Positions 22,672-31,296 of a DNA stretch of 64,000 nt are shown here, in pieces. How positions within the stretch are numbered: position 1 is the first letter of the stretch; each line of letters opens with the position of its first letter. This DNA comes from Methylobacterium sp. SyP6R (GTDB lineage Bacteria > Pseudomonadota > Alphaproteobacteria > Rhizobiales > Beijerinckiaceae), in assembly GCF_019216885.1 (NCBI RefSeq), contig NZ_JAAQRC020000001.1, forward strand, positions 6,067,501 to 6,131,500. Reading direction: 5' to 3'. The notes beneath the pieces were generated by a model. That model saw only the letters and a list, made by a program, of their open reading frames with translations, ran no database searches and was not told the origin of the DNA. Position numbers and translations under genes: made by a program.

Positions 22672-23052
22672 TCAGGCGTGGGCGGCCGTCAGGGCGTTCG
22701 GATCGGCGGGCGTGATCGCGACGGATTCACCGCAGCCGCAGGCCGAGGTCTGGTTCGGATTGTTGAACACGAACTGCGACGACAGCTTCGTGGTCTGGAA
22801 ATCCATCTGAGTCCCGAGCAGGAACAGCACCGCCTTCGGATCGATGAAGACGCGGACGCCCTTGTCCTCGATCATGTCCTCGCCGGGTTTCCGCTCCTCG
22901 GCGTATTCCATCGTGTAGCTCATCCCGGCGCAGCCGCCGTTCTTGACGCCGACGCGCAGGCCCGCGATCGGGCGCTCAGCGTCGGCCATGATGCCCTTGA
23001 TCCGCTCGGCGGCGGCCTCGGTCAGCGACATCACCTTGAAGCTCGGTGCCAT
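22672..23052 (-). CDS. sufA: A-type Fe-S carrier protein (SufA/HesB-IscA family)
   Basis: Carries or delivers assembled Fe-S clusters to target proteins. 126 residues from the ATG at 23052 with GGAGAGAG upstream (a TTG 6 bp earlier is possible). The three family cysteines are visible: one in GGCAGMSYTM and the CGC pair in SACGCGESVA near the C terminus. It is the last member of the suf cluster in the same direction, but is cut off from sufT by the oppositely oriented Uma2 gene, so it probably needs its own promoter. Confidence 0.9.
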   Translation of the reverse strand: MAPSFKVMSLTEAAAERIKGIMADAERPIAGLRVGVKNGGCAGMSYTMEYAEERKPGEDMIEDKGVRVFIDPKAVLFLLGTQMDFQTTKLSSQFVFNNPNQTSACGCGESVAITPADPNALTAAHA

Positions 23053-23175
23053 GTTCAAAACTCTCTCCGACGGCCGGGTTCAAGGCCCGGGCGGTTGAGG
23101 CGCGAGGTTACGTCTCGGAAGATAAGCATCCCGTTGCCGATGGTCCACCGGAGGGATGTGCTAGGATGAGCCGTC

Positions 23176-23781
23176 ATGGAGGCGGCGATGGCGGATGCGG
23201 CGCGGCGGCGGATGACGCCGGAGGAATTCTTTCGCTGGCAGGAGGACCAGGACGAGCCGTTTGAACTCGTCGATGGCGTTCCGGTCCCGAAGCACCGGAT
23301 GATGACCGGGGCGAGCGTCCAGCATGACCGGGTGACGGTGAACGTCATCATCGCCTTGGGCAATAAGCTGCGTGGCTCCCGCTGCCGCCCGACGACCGAC
23401 GATGTCTCGCTGCGAACCAGTATCACCACGATCCGGCGGCCCGACGTCACGGTCGAGTGTGGCGAACTGGTCTACGACACCCACGAATCCCGCGAGCCAC
23501 GCCTCGTCGTCGAGGTCGCCTCTCCGTCCACGACCACTGTCGACCGGACGGTGAAACTGGAGGAGTACAAGCGCCATCCGACGCTCCGGTCCATCCTGCT
23601 CCTCGAGACCGTGGCGCCGGTCGCCCTGCTCTACCGCCGCGAGGGGGAGGGCTGGCAACCGGTGCTGTTCGAAGGCCTCGATGCCGTCATCGCCCTGCCG
23701 GAGATCGGCGCGAGCCTGGCGCTGGCCGAGGTCTATGACGGCCTCGCCTTCCCGCCCCGCATCACCGACGCGATGCGCTGA
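23176..23781 (+). CDS. Uma2-family (DUF820) putative endonuclease-fold protein
   Basis: 201 residues. The PD-(D/E)XK-like core is visible: MTPEEFFRWQE near the N terminus, ELVDGVPV, then RRPDVTVECGEL and RLVVEVASPSTTT, which match the Uma2 motif pattern. Uma2 genes are numerous in cyanobacteria and in Methylobacterium-like genomes; their cellular role is not established. It lies opposite to, and inside, the suf operon between sufT and sufA: 124 bp after the sufA start (divergent) and 6 bp from the sufT stop (convergent). It looks like an insertion into the operon (inference). Confidence 0.8.
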   Translation: MEAAMADAARRRMTPEEFFRWQEDQDEPFELVDGVPVPKHRMMTGASVQHDRVTVNVIIALGNKLRGSRCRPTTDDVSLRTSITTIRRPDVTVECGELVYDTHESREPRLVVEVASPSTTTVDRTVKLEEYKRHPTLRSILLLETVAPVALLYRREGEGWQPVLFEGLDAVIALPEIGASLALAEVYDGLAFPPRITDAMR

Positions 23782-23787
23782 ACCCGC

Positions 23788-24177
23788 TCACCACATGTCG
23801 AGCGCGATGCGGGCCTCGTCGGACATCCGGCTCTGGTCCCACGGCGGGTCGAACACCATCGTCACGTTGCACCCGGCGACGCCCGGCACCGCCGAGACGG
23901 CGTTCTCGACCCAGCCCGGCATCTCGCCGGCGACGGGACAGCCCGGCGCCGTCAGCGTCATGTCGATGGCGACATTGCGGTCGTCGGCGATGTCGACCCG
24001 GTAGATCAAGCCGAGCTCGTAGATGTCGGCCGGAATCTCCGGATCGTAGACGGATTTGAGCGCCGCCACGATGCCGTCGGTCAGACGGTCCATCTCCTCC
24101 GGCGGGATCGCGGAGGCGTTCACCTGGGCGTTCAGCGACGGGGTATTCGCGCCGCTCGCGGCGGGGGTATCGGTCAT
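23788..24177 (-). CDS. sufT: Fe-S assembly protein SufT (MIP18/DUF59 family)
   Basis: 129 residues. The DUF59 core covers about 30-129: VYDPEIPADIYELGLIYRVDI, then LTAPGCPVAGEMPGWVENAV with the conserved Cys, and VFDPPWDQSRMSDEAR. SufT helps mature Fe-S proteins. The first 30 residues are a Ala/Ser/Thr-rich extension common in alphaproteobacterial forms. It starts 7 bp after the sufS stop, so it is co-transcribed with it. Confidence 0.92.
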   Translation of the reverse strand: MTDTPAASGANTPSLNAQVNASAIPPEEMDRLTDGIVAALKSVYDPEIPADIYELGLIYRVDIADDRNVAIDMTLTAPGCPVAGEMPGWVENAVSAVPGVAGCNVTMVFDPPWDQSRMSDEARIALDMW

Positions 24178-24184
24178 GGGGTCC

Positions 24185-25429
24185 TCACGCGAACATCCGT
24201 TCGGCCCGGGTCAGGGCCGAGACGAGGGCGTCGATCTCCGCCGTCGTATTATACAGGCCGAACGAGGCGCGACAGGTGGAAGTGGTGCCGAAGCGCTTGA
24301 GCAGCGGCATGGCGCAGTGGGTGCCGGCCCGCACCGCAACGCCCTGGCGGTCGATCACCGTGGCGACGTCGTGGGCGTGCGCACCCTTCATCTCAAAGGA
24401 GATCACCGCGCCCTTGTGCTTCGCCGTGCCGATGATCCGCAGGCTGTTCATCCCGCGCAGGGCGTCCTGCGCGTAGGCCAGCAGATGCGCCTCGTGGGCG
24501 GCGATGCGCTCGCGGCCGAGCGACATCATGAATTCGAGCGCCGCGCCGAGCCCGATCGCCTCGATGATCGCCGGGGTGCCCGCCTCGAAGCGGTGCGGGG
24601 GCGCGTTGTAGGTGATGCGCTCCTCCTCGACGATCTCGATCATCTCGCCGCCGCCCTGGTAGGGGGGCAGACGCTCCAGCCACTCCTTCTTGCCGTAGAG
24701 CACGCCGATGCCGGTCGGCCCGTAGACCTTGTGGCCGGTGAAGACGAAGAAGTCGCAATCGAGGGCCTGGACGTCGATCGCCTGGTGGACGGCGCTCTGC
24801 GCCCCGTCGAGCAGCACCGGCACGCCGTGGGCATGCGCGATGCGGACGATCTCTTCCGCCGGCGTCACCGTGCCGAGGACGTTCGACATCTGGGTGATCG
24901 CCACCATCTTGGTGCGGGGCGAGAAGAGCTTCTCGAACTCCTCGACCAGGAAGTTGCCCTCGTCGTCGACGGGGGCGAATTTCAGCACGGCGCCGCGGCG
25001 CTCGCGCAGGAAGTGCCAGGGCACGATGTTGGAATGGTGCTCCATGATCGACAGGATGATCTCGTCACCCTCGCCGATCAGCCCGGCCCAGCCCATGCAG
25101 GTCGCGACGAGATTGTAGGCCTCGGTGGCGTTGCGGGTGAAGATGATCTCGTCGGTGGAGCGGGCGTTGAGGAACTGGCGCGTCGTCTCGCGCGCGCCCT
25201 CGAAGCCGTCCGTCGCCGCATTCGCCATGAAGTGCAGGCCGCGATGCACGTTGGCATAGGCCGTCTCCATCGCGCCCGACATGGCGTCGATCACCGCCCG
25301 CGGCTTCTGCGCCGAGGCGGCGTTGTCGAGATAGACCAGCGGCTTGCCGTAGACCTGCTGCGACAGGATCGGGAATTGCGCCCGGATCGCCTCGACGTCG
25401 TAGGGGGTCTGGAGGACGGGTGCGTTCAT
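24185..25429 (-). CDS. sufS: Cysteine desulfurase SufS (class II)
   Basis: PLP enzyme that takes sulfur from cysteine as a protein persulfide for Fe-S clusters. 414 residues. It shows YLDNAASAQKPRAVID, the PLP lysine in FTGHKVYGPTGIGVLYG, and the active-site Cys in RAGTHCAMPLLKRFG (C372), the class II pattern. It sits 59 bp after sufD and 7 bp before sufT. It is the second desulfurase of this operon, alongside the NifS/IscS-type enzyme at the operon head. Confidence 0.94.
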   Translation of the reverse strand: MNAPVLQTPYDVEAIRAQFPILSQQVYGKPLVYLDNAASAQKPRAVIDAMSGAMETAYANVHRGLHFMANAATDGFEGARETTRQFLNARSTDEIIFTRNATEAYNLVATCMGWAGLIGEGDEIILSIMEHHSNIVPWHFLRERRGAVLKFAPVDDEGNFLVEEFEKLFSPRTKMVAITQMSNVLGTVTPAEEIVRIAHAHGVPVLLDGAQSAVHQAIDVQALDCDFFVFTGHKVYGPTGIGVLYGKKEWLERLPPYQGGGEMIEIVEEERITYNAPPHRFEAGTPAIIEAIGLGAALEFMMSLGRERIAAHEAHLLAYAQDALRGMNSLRIIGTAKHKGAVISFEMKGAHAHDVATVIDRQGVAVRAGTHCAMPLLKRFGTTSTCRASFGLYNTTAEIDALVSALTRAERMFA

Positions 25430-25488: not shown

Positions 25489-26808
25489 TTAGCCGCGGCG
25501 GGCGAGCCAGGCTTCGGTCTCGGCGATCATTGCGTCGCGGGCCCCCTCGTGGGTCACCGCCTCGATCGCCTCGCCGAGGAAGGCCTGGACCAGCAGGCTC
25601 TCGGCCTGGGGCCGCGGCAGGCCGCGGGCCATCAGGTAGAACAGCAGGTCCTCGTCCGGCGCGCCGCAGGTGGCGCCGTGGCCGCAGGCCACGTCGTCGG
25701 CGAAGATCTCCAGCTCCGGCTTGTTCATCATCTGCCCCTCGTCGGTGAGGAGGAGGCAGTCCGACTTCATCTTGCCGTCGGTCTTCTGGGCGATCTGCCG
25801 GACGATGATCTTGCCCTGGAACACGCCGGTGGCGTCGCCGTCGATGACTGTCTTGAACTGCTCGCGGCTGATGCCGCCGACCGCCGCGTGATCGGCGAGC
25901 AGCGTCGAGTCGGCGAGCTGGCCGTCGCGGATCATCGCGGCGCCGTTGACCGTGGCGGTCGCGTCGTCGCCGGCGAAGTGCAGGTAGAGCTGGTGGCGCG
26001 ACAGCACCGCGCCGGTCACCACGTTGACGGTCTCGATGTGCGAGCCGGCGCCGAGGCGGGCCGAGACGGTCGAGAGCGCGATGGCGGCATCACCCTCGAT
26101 GTTGAGCCGGCTGTGCAGCACGCGGGCGCGGTCGCCGACCACGACGTCGAGGACGTCGTTGGGCTGGTAGGCGATCCCGTCCGGGCCCTCGTGGCTCTCG
26201 AGCAGCGTCACCTCGGACTCATCCCCGGCCACGACCAGCACGCGGGTCGCGGTCGAGAACGGAGCCTCGCCGGTGCCGATGAAGCGCAGGTGCAGGGCGC
26301 GCTCGATCCTGGCGCCGGCCTCGACCTTGATCACCGCCCCGTCCGCCATGAAGGCGGCGTTGAGCTGGTAGATCGGGTTCTCGCGGGTCTGCTCGACCGG
26401 GGCGAGGTGGTCGAGGAGCGGATGACCCTCGGCCATGGCCTTCGCGAAGGTGACCACCTCCAGGCCCTCGGGCAGGCCGGACAGGTCGGAGAGCGCCGCG
26501 ATCAGGTGGCCGTTGACGAAGGTCAGGCGTGCGGCCTCGATCCCGGCAAAGCCCCGGGCCGCCTTGACCGCATTGCGGGCAGTCTCGGGCTCGGGCGCCT
26601 CGGCCGGCGGGGCGGCCTCGCGCACAGCAGCGCGCAGGTCGGTGTACTTGAAGGCCTCGACGCGGCGATGCGGCAGGCCCGCCGCCTCGAAATAGCGGAA
26701 CGCTTCCTCGCGGGCGATGGCCGCCCCGGGGAGCTTGAGCCGCTGGACCTCGAAGAGCTTCGACAGCCCGGTCTCGGCGGCGGTGCGGAGGGTCGTGACG
26801 TCGGCCAT
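25489..26808 (-). CDS. sufD: Fe-S cluster scaffold component SufD
   Basis: Part of the SufBC2D scaffold where Fe-S clusters are built. 439 residues from the ATG at 26808, 2 bp after the sufC stop (a GTG overlapping that stop is an alternative). Typical regions are HRRVEAFKYTDLR near residue 50 and the C-terminal beta-helix core ending with MNKPELEIFADDVACGHGATCGAPDEDLLFYLMARGLP, which contains the functional Cys/His stretch. In line with sufB and sufC in the operon. Confidence 0.93.
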   Translation of the reverse strand: MADVTTLRTAAETGLSKLFEVQRLKLPGAAIAREEAFRYFEAAGLPHRRVEAFKYTDLRAAVREAAPPAEAPEPETARNAVKAARGFAGIEAARLTFVNGHLIAALSDLSGLPEGLEVVTFAKAMAEGHPLLDHLAPVEQTRENPIYQLNAAFMADGAVIKVEAGARIERALHLRFIGTGEAPFSTATRVLVVAGDESEVTLLESHEGPDGIAYQPNDVLDVVVGDRARVLHSRLNIEGDAAIALSTVSARLGAGSHIETVNVVTGAVLSRHQLYLHFAGDDATATVNGAAMIRDGQLADSTLLADHAAVGGISREQFKTVIDGDATGVFQGKIIVRQIAQKTDGKMKSDCLLLTDEGQMMNKPELEIFADDVACGHGATCGAPDEDLLFYLMARGLPRPQAESLLVQAFLGEAIEAVTHEGARDAMIAETEAWLARRG

Positions 26809-26810
26809 GG

Positions 26811-27563
26811 TCACGCGGCCTCGCTCGCCCGGTACTCGGCATAGCCCGAGGCCTCGAGCTCGAGGGCGAGCTCCTTAGCCCCGGACTTCACCACCCGGCC
26901 CTGCGCCATCACGTGCACGGTGTCGGGCACGATGTGGTTGAGGAGCCGCTGGTAGTGGGTGATCACCAGGAAGCTGCGGTTCTGGGCGCGCAGCGCATTC
27001 ACGCCCTCCGAGACGATGCGGAGCGCATCGATGTCGAGGCCGGAATCGGTCTCGTCGAGGACGCAGAAGCGCGGCGACAGGAGCGCCATCTGGAGGATCT
27101 CCATGCGCTTCTTCTCGCCGCCGGAGAACCCGACATTGAGGGCGCGCTTGAGCATCTCGCGGTTGATCTCGAGCTTGTCGGCAGCCGCGAAGACCTGGCG
27201 CATGAAGTCGGGGGTGGTCAGCTCCTCCTCGCCGCGGGTCTTGCGCTGGGCGTTCATCGCCGCCTTGAGGAAGGTCATCGTGCCGACGCCCGGGATCTCC
27301 AGCGGGTACTGGAAGGCCAGGAAGATGCCGGCCGCCGCGCGGGCATCCGCTTCCATCTCCAGGATGTTCTCGCCGTCGAGCAGGATCTCGCCGTCGAGGA
27401 CCTCGTAATCCTCCTTGCCGGCGATGACGTAGGACAGGGTCGACTTGCCGGAGCCGTTCGGCCCCATGATGGCGGCGACCTCGCCGTCGTTGACGGTCAG
27501 GCTCAGGCCGTTGAGGATGCGCTTGTCCTCGATGTTGACGACCAGGTTCTTGATTTCCAGCAT
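26811..27563 (-). CDS. sufC: Fe-S assembly ATPase SufC
   Basis: ABC-type ATPase that drives conformational change in the SufBC2D scaffold. 250 residues from the ATG at 27563, with AGGAC upstream. Walker A is [10 protein letters not shown]. The signature region is [16 protein letters not shown], Walker B is [15 protein letters not shown], and the H-loop is VITHYQRLL. There is no membrane part, as expected for SufC. A hairpin lies in the gap between sufB and this start, and the sufD ATG follows the stop after 2 bp. Confidence 0.95.
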
Positions 27564-27634
27564 GATAAGGTAGTCCTGACGGGAGCGGCCGACCGCGCGG
27601 CACCGCATCCGTTGCAATGAATTCGGGGCGTAAG

Positions 27635-27669: not shown

Positions 27670-29139
<1,470 letters not shown>

Positions 29140-29208: not shown

Positions 29209-30384
29209 TCACGCGGCCCGCTCCCGGCGCTTATATAGGGACGAAACCAGCCGATCGAAGGCCGCGAGGAAGCTTTCCCCGTCCTCTTGCCGGCTGTTCC
29301 ACCCCAAACTCACGCGCAGCGCCCCAGCGGACAGGGCGGAATCGACCCCCATCGCCGCGAGCACGCCGGAGCGCGACACCTTGCCCGAGGCGCAGGCCGC
29401 CCCGGACGAGACCGCCACCCCATCGAGGTCGAGGGCGATCAGGGCCGTCTCGGCCTTGAGCCCCGGCAGGGCGAAGCAAAGCGTGTTGGGCAGGCGCTCG
29501 GCCCCCGCCCCGAACACCACGGCATCGGGCGCGCGTGCCCGCACGCCCGCCTCGATCGCGTCGCGCAGGGAGGCGAGGCGGATCGCCTCGGCCGACATGG
29601 CTGCCAGCGCCAGTTCCGCGGCGATCCCGAACCCGACGATGCCCGGCACGTTCTCGGTCCCGGCCCGCAGGCGCCCCTCCTGCCCGCCGCCGCGGTGGAA
29701 GGCGGGCTCCAGGATCGCGCCCTCCCCGAGCACGATCGCACCAACGCCCTTCGGCGCACCGAGCTTGTGCCCCGACAGGGTCAGGGCGTCGGCAGCGAAT
29801 ATATTGCGCGCGATCGATATCCGTCCAGCGGTCTGGACCGCATCGCTGTGGAACAGGGCGCCGTGCTGGCATGCGAGTGCCGCAACCCTCGCCAGGGGCT
29901 GGACCACGCCGGTTTCGTTGTTGGCGGCCTGGACCGAGACCAGAGCGGTGACGCCCTCCGCGGCACACGCCGCCAATCGCGCCTCCAGGACGTCGAGGCG
30001 GATGACCCCGTCGGCATCGACCGGCAGGATCGCGGTCTCGTGCGCCGGGAAGCGGTGGCCTTGCAGGCAGCACGGATGTTCGGTCGCGCCGATCAGCAGC
30101 CGGGTCGGCGCCGGCACGCCGCGCCGGCATAAAGAGCCCGACAGGACCGCGTTCGCGGATTCGGTGCCGCCGCTGGTGAACACCACCTGCGACGGCTTCA
30201 CCCCGGCGAGGGAAGCGACCTTGGCCCGCGCCGCCTCGATCGCCGAACGAGCCGCCCGCCCTTCGCGATGGACCGAGGACGGGTTGCCGGGCAGGTCGTG
30301 GAGCGCGCGCACGACCGCCTCCGCCACCTCGGGCCGCAGGGGCGAGGTGGCGTTGTGGTCGAGATAGGCGCGCGGGCGCTCCAT
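29209..30384 (-). CDS. Cysteine desulfurase (NifS/IscS-like, class I)
   Basis: 391 residues. PLP-dependent sulfur donor. YLDHNATSPLRPEV is at the N terminus, PLP Lys is in LSGHKLGAPKGVGA, the substrate region is RAGTENVPGIVG, and the active-site Cys is in SSGAACASGKVSRS (C331), as in class I enzymes. ATG at 30384. First gene of the Fe-S operon. Alphaproteobacterial suf operons often carry this second desulfurase. No IscR-type repressor gene sits in front of it here; instead there is a double Irr-like site 116 bp upstream. Confidence 0.9.
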   Translation of the reverse strand: MERPRAYLDHNATSPLRPEVAEAVVRALHDLPGNPSSVHREGRAARSAIEAARAKVASLAGVKPSQVVFTSGGTESANAVLSGSLCRRGVPAPTRLLIGATEHPCCLQGHRFPAHETAILPVDADGVIRLDVLEARLAACAAEGVTALVSVQAANNETGVVQPLARVAALACQHGALFHSDAVQTAGRISIARNIFAADALTLSGHKLGAPKGVGAIVLGEGAILEPAFHRGGGQEGRLRAGTENVPGIVGFGIAAELALAAMSAEAIRLASLRDAIEAGVRARAPDAVVFGAGAERLPNTLCFALPGLKAETALIALDLDGVAVSSGAACASGKVSRSGVLAAMGVDSALSAGALRVSLGWNSRQEDGESFLAAFDRLVSSLYKRRERAA

Positions 30385-30499
30385 GCGCTGAATTCCTTTG
30401 CCTTTCCCCCCGGGGGCCGTGCTAAGGCCCGCCCCGGATACACGTAATCAGATGGTGCGTGCTTGCCGGCGCGAGGCCGGGGACGACGGCACCCGGTTC

Positions 30500-30534
30500 T
30501 TTAGAATGATTCTAGTTCGCTAGAACCATTCTAA
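30500..30534 (-). promoter_or_regulatory. Tandem Irr (iron control element)-like boxes forming an inverted repeat
   Basis: Two AT-rich sites, TTTAGAATGATTCTAG (30500-30515) and CTAGAACCATTCTAA (30520-30534), each fit the Irr/ICE pattern TTAGAA-N3-TTCTAA. Together they make a 15-bp inverted repeat with one mismatch around TTCG. They lie 116 bp before the desulfurase start and 106 bp before the divergent hydrolase start. Irr is the haem/iron-status regulator of Rhizobiales and is known to control suf operons in some of them. Confidence 0.75.
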
Positions 30535-30639
30535 GGGTGCTTTTATGGGAGACCGACCCCGAGTCAAGCATCGGACTCGGGGTGCCCAGCCGTTCCCGCG
30601 CCGCATTCACGCAGCGTTGAAGCTCGAAAGAGGTCGTTC

Positions 30640-31296
30640 ATGCCCGAGGTCATCTTCGCCGGTCCCGCCGGTCGGCTGGAGGGGCGCTACCAGGCGCCGA
30701 AGCAGAAGGGCGCCCCGATCGCCATCGTGCTGCATCCGCACCCGCAATTCGGCGGCACGATGAACAACCAGATCGTCTACAACCTGTTCTATACGTTCGC
30801 GAATCGCGGTTTCGCGGCCCTGCGCTTCAATTTCCGCGGCGTCGGCCGCAGCCAGGGCGCGTTCGACCACGGCGTCGGCGAGTTGTCGGATGCCGCCGCC
30901 GCCCTCGACTGGGTCCAGGCGATGAACCCCGAGGCCCGGGCCTGCTGGATCGCCGGCGTTTCGTTCGGCTCCTGGATCGGCATGCAGCTCCTGATGCGCC
31001 GCCCGGAGATCGAGGGCTTCATCTCGATCGCCGCGATGGCCAACCGCTACGATTTCAGCTTCCTCGCCCCCTGCCCGTCCTCGGGCCTGTTCGTGCACGG
31101 CTCCGAGGACCGGGTCGCGCCGGCCCGCGAGGTGATGCCGGTGATCGAGAAGGTGAAGACCCAGAAGGGCGTCATCATCGAGCACCAGATCGTCGACGGT
31201 GCCAACCACTTCTTCGACGGCAAGGTCGACGAGCTGACCCAGACGGTGGACACCTACCTCGACAAGCGGCTGGGCAAGCGCGACGAGGCGGCGTGA
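30640..31296 (+). CDS. Alpha/beta-hydrolase (small serine hydrolase)
   Basis: 218 residues. The fold marks are IVLHPHPQFGGTMNN near residue 30, FNFRGVGRSQG, the nucleophile elbow GVSFGSW, the acid region HGSEDRVAP, and the catalytic His in GANHFFDGK. This corresponds to the cytosolic small-hydrolase group often annotated as dienelactone-hydrolase-like; the substrate is unknown. No signal peptide. It is divergent from the Fe-S operon across the Irr-like sites, so it might share their control. Confidence 0.85.
   Translation: MPEVIFAGPAGRLEGRYQAPKQKGAPIAIVLHPHPQFGGTMNNQIVYNLFYTFANRGFAALRFNFRGVGRSQGAFDHGVGELSDAAAALDWVQAMNPEARACWIAGVSFGSWIGMQLLMRRPEIEGFISIAAMANRYDFSFLAPCPSSGLFVHGSEDRVAPAREVMPVIEKVKTQKGVIIEHQIVDGANHFFDGKVDELTQTVDTYLDKRLGKRDEAA

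Follow-up and report, generated by a model that had tools for sequence, protein, structure and literature searches.

Irr boxes at the suf and isc-suf promoters of Alphaproteobacteria were predicted by Rodionov et al. in 2006 (as relayed in the available part of PMC6956336). For R. sphaeroides, the accessible sections of that paper report a gel shift in which Irr bound DNA with TTAGAAATATTCTAGA, a sequence that includes the exact core of the box, ahead of the suf promoter P3, that Irr binding was not confirmed for P1 and P2, and that the effects of Irr on the isc-suf promoters were small, with P1 and P2 falling in an irr mutant (PMC6956336). The excerpted text of PMC3413700 adds that some suf genes were raised in an R. 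sphaeroides irr mutant, that the mbfA start of this species lies within its Irr box, consistent with a repressor role, and that 23 Irr sites are predicted in Bradyrhizobium japonicum and 2 in R. sphaeroides. Irr recognises its site, the ICE, only in the haem-free state, and whether it represses or activates depends on where that site lies (available part of PMC7762939).

The suf locus of Methylobacterium shares with the known alphaproteobacterial suf Irr boxes the core TAGAA-N3-TTCTA and the target operon, and the genome carries an Irr gene. At R. sphaeroides P3, as far as the excerpted source describes it, a single box lies ~50 nt upstream of the start, whereas Methylobacterium has two, at and just downstream of the predicted start. 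A start within the Irr box, as predicted here, is known from R. sphaeroides mbfA, which differs in being another gene with a single box in the part of the source available (PMC3413700). The suf loci of Microvirga, Bosea, Xanthobacter and Neorhizobium resemble that of Methylobacterium in having a box between suf and a divergent hydrolase, but theirs is one box, 31-39 nt downstream of TTGAC, whereas Methylobacterium has a second, 19 bp downstream. IscR-controlled isc and suf operons are likewise Fe-S operons under an iron-linked regulator; unlike them, the Methylobacterium operon has no iscR gene at its head. Among the listed matches of a literature search on Irr in Methylobacterium or Methylorubrum extorquens (titles and abstract starts), there was no study of this operator. 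An Irr box at suf is already known and the tandem form is new; the paired sites are a conserved genus-level form of a known switch and no new kind of system.

The suf locus and its paired boxes

The sequence TTTAGAATGATTCTAGTTCGCTAGAACCATTCTAA, read directly from positions 30500-30534 of the window (the whole 64-kb stretch of DNA analysed), holds both boxes. The features of the locus are as follows, with strands given relative to the window.

30640..31296, forward strand: alpha/beta hydrolase, divergent neighbour (PF02129, PF12146 and PF00561 above cut-off)
30562..30567, reverse strand: -35 hexamer TTGACT of the predicted suf promoter (kept in 34 of 34 Methylobacterium loci)
30540..30545, reverse strand: -10 hexamer TAAAAG of the predicted suf promoter, with a 16-bp spacer (from the locus alignment)
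30533, reverse strand: predicted suf transcription start, within ~2 nt (placed from the -10 position)
30521..30533, reverse strand: Irr-type box A, promoter-proximal for suf, at about +1 to +13 of the predicted transcript (exact TAGAANNNTTCTA; -35 hexamer 34 nt upstream)
30515..30520, no strand: linker of 6 bp, variable in sequence (length fixed by the search pattern, which matched in 108 of 111 genomes)
30502..30514, reverse strand: Irr-type box B, the second and downstream one, at about +20 to +32 of the predicted transcript (exact TAGAANNNTTCTA; pair in 108 of 111 genomes of the genus)
29209..30384, reverse strand: sufS2, NifS-like cysteine desulfurase, first gene of the operon (best family TIGR03402, 328.5 bits, below the cut-off of 530.75)
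27670..29139, reverse strand: sufB (NF008773 and TIGR01980 above cut-off)
26811..27563, reverse strand: sufC (TIGR01978 above cut-off; scanned as 26811-27566)
25489..26814, reverse strand: sufD (best family TIGR01981, 219.7 bits against a cut-off of 222)
24185..25429, reverse strand: sufS, second cysteine desulfurase (TIGR01979 above cut-off)
23788..24177, reverse strand: SUF-associated gene (TIGR02945 above cut-off), which we take to be DUF59-type
22672..23058, reverse strand: SufA-type Fe-S carrier (PF01521 above cut-off; operon membership assumed, as it lies beyond an antisense gene)

The operon thus named runs sufS2-B-C-D-S-DUF59, with A probably a further member. On the forward strand at 23176-23781, a Uma2-family gene (PF05685) runs antisense to its neighbours; it separates the SUF-associated gene (23788-24177) from the SufA-type gene (22672-23058) and splits the 3' end of the suf cluster. 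As the first-pass annotation had described, the two sites lie between a cysteine desulfurase (NifS-like, 29209-30384, reverse strand) and a divergent hydrolase (alpha/beta type, 30640-31296, forward strand), and no IscR-type gene heads the operon, the interval between sufS2 and the hydrolase holding no gene at all.

The boxes are two perfect 13-bp TAGAA-N3-TTCTA palindromes, at 30502-30514 and 30521-30533. Their centres lie at 30508 and 30527, so the spacing is 19 bp from centre to centre and, equally, from start to start as a direct repeat. The earlier description of two ICE-type sites 20 bp apart therefore stands as to the two sites, which are exact, and is corrected as to their distance. 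The inverted repeat of 15 bp with one mismatch that had also been reported was recovered as such, with arms at 30501-30515 and 30520-30534 (15 nt, 93% complementary, one mismatch, 4-nt gap). A spacing of 19 bp corresponds to 1.81 helical turns, so two dimers would not sit exactly on one face of the DNA, while contact between them would still be feasible. Allowing at most one mismatch, the 13-bp core was found twice in the 64-kb window against 0.03 expected, and none of 100 shuffled windows held two core matches. No other place in the 7.5 Mb genome holds the exact core, and by an independent-base model at 71% GC, a pair with up to three mismatches is expected 0.0007 times per 7.5 Mb.

A sigma-70 consensus scan of 30385-30639 returned no promoter. 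The predicted suf promoter was recognised by comparison instead, its -10 being TAAAAG or TACAAG. An alignment of 34 Methylobacterium loci on the pair (L046-L075 and L079-L082, of which L082 is the genome studied here) contains one other conserved block, made up of TTGACT and the -10 element, and the predicted promoter that these form points at sufS2. TTGACT starts 34 nt upstream of box A in 31 loci and 33 nt upstream in the other 3. The -10 element reads TAAAAG or TACAAG in 27 of the 34 loci, and the other seven have TACAAA (2), TAAAAA (2) or GTACAA with a one-base shift (3). By this alignment, the predicted suf start at ~30533 would be the first base of box A, and the two boxes would cover about +1 to +32. 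The predicted suf -35 overlaps with a perfect 10-bp inverted repeat (30556-30583, arms 8 nt apart), which, as judged by eye, most of the aligned relatives do not preserve as a repeat.

Conservation in Methylobacterium and across the order

The first-pass annotation had made its reading depend on the two sites being conserved in related genomes, and they are. With the 6-bp linker, the only spacing searched, and up to three mismatches, a single pair was found in each of 108 of the 111 genomes of the genus, at a spacing fixed across species; a reversed-pattern control matched in 1 of 111. The three genomes without a match (G077, G078 and G093) are 85, 70 and 91% complete. Among the matches listed, 60 of 75 genomes (of the 108) carry the pair free of mismatches, and over the 34 aligned loci, mismatches within the pair are confined to the inner half-sites (five, with none in the outer ones). 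In all 30 same-genus pair loci that were fetched, the pair is flanked by the hydrolase and sufS2. In a set of 80 named loci, the pair was found in six of the seven titled Methylobacterium, and all six pair-bearing loci carry that title; the seventh Methylobacterium-titled locus belongs to a metagenome-assembled genome and has a single box and a hydrolase that is 79% identical.

To extend the comparison beyond the genus, we used the 3 kb upstream of sufB in 100 order-level loci, with the own genus left out. These were hand-picked for family spread from the places listed, 158 of 159 genomes having matched, and box counts refer to the 94 loci with both neighbours. In 57 of these 94 loci, the interval from the hydrolase to the next suf-operon gene holds a box matching at least 9 of 10 positions (reversed-sequence control, 0 of 94), and at least one box was found in 25 of 39 families; the remaining 37 loci have none. 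For 56 of the 57 boxes, TTGAC starts 24-52 nt upstream, and for 40 of the 57 it starts 30-38 nt upstream. Single boxes were also found in all eight Microvirga loci (32-36 nt from TTGAC) and all three Bosea loci (37-39 nt) of the named set. Since the usual single box shares the TTGAC spacing of box A, box A is probably ancestral, with box B added downstream. The distance from box B to TTGAC is 53 nt, and a minority of order-level boxes come closer to this figure, at 48-50 nt from TTGAC, including that of one of the two same-family loci (L100).

The pair itself appears in only 2 of the 94 order-level loci, both from a single genus of another family (g56). Three of five genomes of this genus have it, at the same locus; those with at most 5% contamination number two, neither with the pair, and the three pair-bearing genomes fall outside that set. 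Compared with the window, the hydrolase of the pair-bearing genomes is ~74% identical and sufS2 50-52%, identities low enough to argue that these pairs are not stray Methylobacterium DNA.

In one genus with genomes of 6.9-8.8 Mb (f36g42; loci L163, L165, L192 and L193), there is no box ahead of sufS2, and all four loci carry a 9/10 site, TTGAA-N3-TTCTA, just upstream of sufB, which recalls the internal P3 of R. sphaeroides. In the 19 Bradyrhizobium-titled loci, the stretch 40-330 nt ahead of the hydrolase holds no 8/10 box.

Of the 100 order-level loci, 94 have the hydrolase in divergent orientation next to suf, whether or not an IscR-like gene is there as well. Such constancy could mean that the Irr-read boxes act chiefly on the hydrolase, or on hydrolase and suf alike, with Irr as an upstream activator of the hydrolase, and Irr can indeed activate depending on the position of its site (available part of PMC7762939). 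We consider this unlikely. The box keeps a distance of 33-34 nt from the suf-pointing TTGAC in all 34 Methylobacterium loci, whereas the hydrolase start is anywhere between 85 and 144 nt away from it (sufS2 is also at a varying distance, 116-220 nt), and anchoring the 34 sequences on the hydrolase start brought out no conserved element. Moreover, the hydrolase and suf stay adjacent in the 37 order-level loci without a box. The suggestion of the first-pass annotation that the hydrolase belongs to the same regulon finds no support here, the gene being divergent in 94 of 100 loci regardless of the box and having no conserved promoter of its own; judged from sequence, its membership is unsupported rather than excluded.

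With regard to IscR, an IscR-like match was found in 21 of the 94 order-level 3-kb stretches, and the IscR-like protein of one such locus (L107) has IscR as its best family, below cut-off. Of these 21 loci, 14 have the box, as do 43 of the 73 without a match, and so the box does not track the loss of iscR. Doubling of the box as compensation for iscR loss was also considered and is unsupported, as the Microvirga and Bosea loci have no second box.

Candidate regulators and other Irr-type sites

The genome encodes two FUR-family proteins, one of them Irr and the other Zur-like and below cut-off. The Irr protein exceeds the cut-offs of both models that describe it (NF045677, 213.1 bits against 170; NF045678, IrrA, 213.7 against 150), and it has a Cys-Pro pair near the N-terminus and a His-rich stretch, which we take to be the haem-binding features of Bradyrhizobium-type Irr. 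Three Rrf2 matches were found in the genome, one of them below cut-off. The two strong ones reach no more than 48 bits against IscR models and 54 against RirA, neither being close to IscR or RirA, whereas the IscR-like protein from a relative reaches 178 bits with IscR models.

Aconitase is an Irr-type target. In the genus, the same motif was found there in a related form, TTCGAA-N3-TTCTATA, which lies upstream of aconitase in all 30 loci fetched (from 41 genomes with a match) at 12-13 of 14 positions, the second-best stretches of these loci scoring 7-10 of 14. In the genome studied here, the site lies outside the window (L031:1501-1517), between aconitase (PF00330) and a gene that, by eye, reads as ccmA-type. 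Measured against the order-wide 17-bp form, the aconitase site is the better one, with one mismatch against two for the suf box. A canonical 17-bp site turned up in just 4 of 111 genomes of the genus (control, 1 of 111), and in the own genome relaxed palindromes show no enrichment, with counts of 385, 37 and 18 against 754, 65 and 23 in the reversed controls. With the relaxed motif not enriched and canonical sites rare, the rest of the Irr regulon is invisible by pattern.

The boxes could also be read by a regulator other than Irr, such as the Zur-like FUR protein, one of the Rrf2 proteins or an unrelated factor. The confinement of exact cores to suf in the own genome would suit such a factor, as would the rarity of canonical sites in the genus compared with the 23 predicted for Bradyrhizobium japonicum; few sites are not unheard of for Irr itself, however, as only 2 are predicted for R. 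sphaeroides (both counts from the excerpted text of PMC3413700). The core is identical to that in the R. sphaeroides region bound by Irr (accessible sections of PMC6956336). Among the proteins that could take this role, the genome has one Irr above cut-off and its other FUR protein is Zur-like, while IscR models give the two strong Rrf2 proteins 48 bits or fewer, compared with 178 for the IscR-like protein of a relative. The related box ahead of aconitase in 30 of 30 loci likewise speaks for Irr, and we judge control by another regulator to be quite unlikely.

The locus combines a core as in Irr-bound DNA, an Irr gene in the genome and a conserved position at a predicted Fe-S promoter. The earlier proposal that two Irr-type sites control suf is favoured by the pair in 108 of 111 genomes, by its place at the predicted suf start and by the box in 57 of 94 order-level loci, and is further backed by the Irr gene and by the related aconitase box.

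The inverted repeat as RNA and a proposed haem switch

The 15-bp inverted repeat might instead act as RNA: as a stem-loop at the 5' end of the suf leader, it could stabilise the mRNA or sense a ligand. The predicted start would place the stem at the very 5' end of the transcript, and the leader has a computed fold of -67.2 kcal/mol (z -3.55) with a 15-bp stem. We examined pairing between the spacers of the two boxes in the 75 genomes listed of the 108 with a match, which gave 61 distinct sequences after orientation by a linker rule. Pairing across the boxes at the outer spacer positions exceeds that in shuffles, which ignore relatedness (0.74 versus 0.51, p < 0.001; 0.64 versus 0.48, p 0.01), and so does the middle spacer pair when G-U is allowed (0.62 versus 0.54, p 0.03, with shuffles that likewise ignore relatedness). 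A test by G+C class over 29 distinct sequences does not explain the pairing away, A.N1-B.N3 being the sole pair below 0.05. On the other side, Watson-Crick pairing of the middle spacer position is 0.46 versus 0.37 (p 0.08), with more than half of the sequences unpaired, and the linker pairs have no excess of pairing over shuffles. The spacers are symmetric within box A too (0.67 versus 0.50), and single-box relatives keep the box near the same place without a long stem. An Rfam search of 30300-30700 gave no match at E up to 1. A role for the repeat as RNA is very unlikely in our estimate, and the hairpin is probably a by-product of the boxes, because any two adjacent palindromes form an inverted repeat.

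We explain the element best as a doubled Irr operator at the suf promoter that blocks suf at low haem or iron, a reading to which we assign a probability of about 0.75. Weighing against it are the small and mixed Irr effects at the R. sphaeroides isc-suf promoters, the scarcity of canonical sites in the genus together with the lack of enrichment of relaxed palindromes, the better fit of the aconitase site to the 17-bp form, the 37 of 94 order-level loci that have no box, and the spacing of 1.81 helical turns. The palindromes, their spacing and their position at the promoter come from the sequence and from comparison, and it is from these that we infer binding, direction and cooperativity. In the proposed mechanism, apo-Irr would accumulate when haem, and so iron, is scarce, and two Irr dimers side by side over about +1 to +32 would block initiation or promoter escape, such that the Irr-blocked promoter would keep suf down. 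Once haem is made, Irr would bind it and be inactivated or degraded, the operator would empty, and Fe-S assembly would be expressed. The second box, which is absent in most relatives that have a box, should tighten or steepen this repression. The fixed spacing would be compatible with two abutting dimers, whose binding may be cooperative, as the first-pass annotation proposed.

A further-reaching version of the doubled operator, in which suf in Methylobacterium has lost IscR feedback and come under a doubled, cooperative Irr operator at its start, with the pair, as the sole exact-core site of this genome, being the dominant Irr target of the genus, is tentative and in our view rather doubtful. 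If it were true, haem status alone would set the supply of Fe-S clusters as a steep switch. Because neighbouring genera have a single box at a promoter and operon that in Methylobacterium carry two, nature offers an unusually clean comparison, which makes it testable whether operator doubling at a fixed spacing sharpens the iron control of Fe-S assembly.
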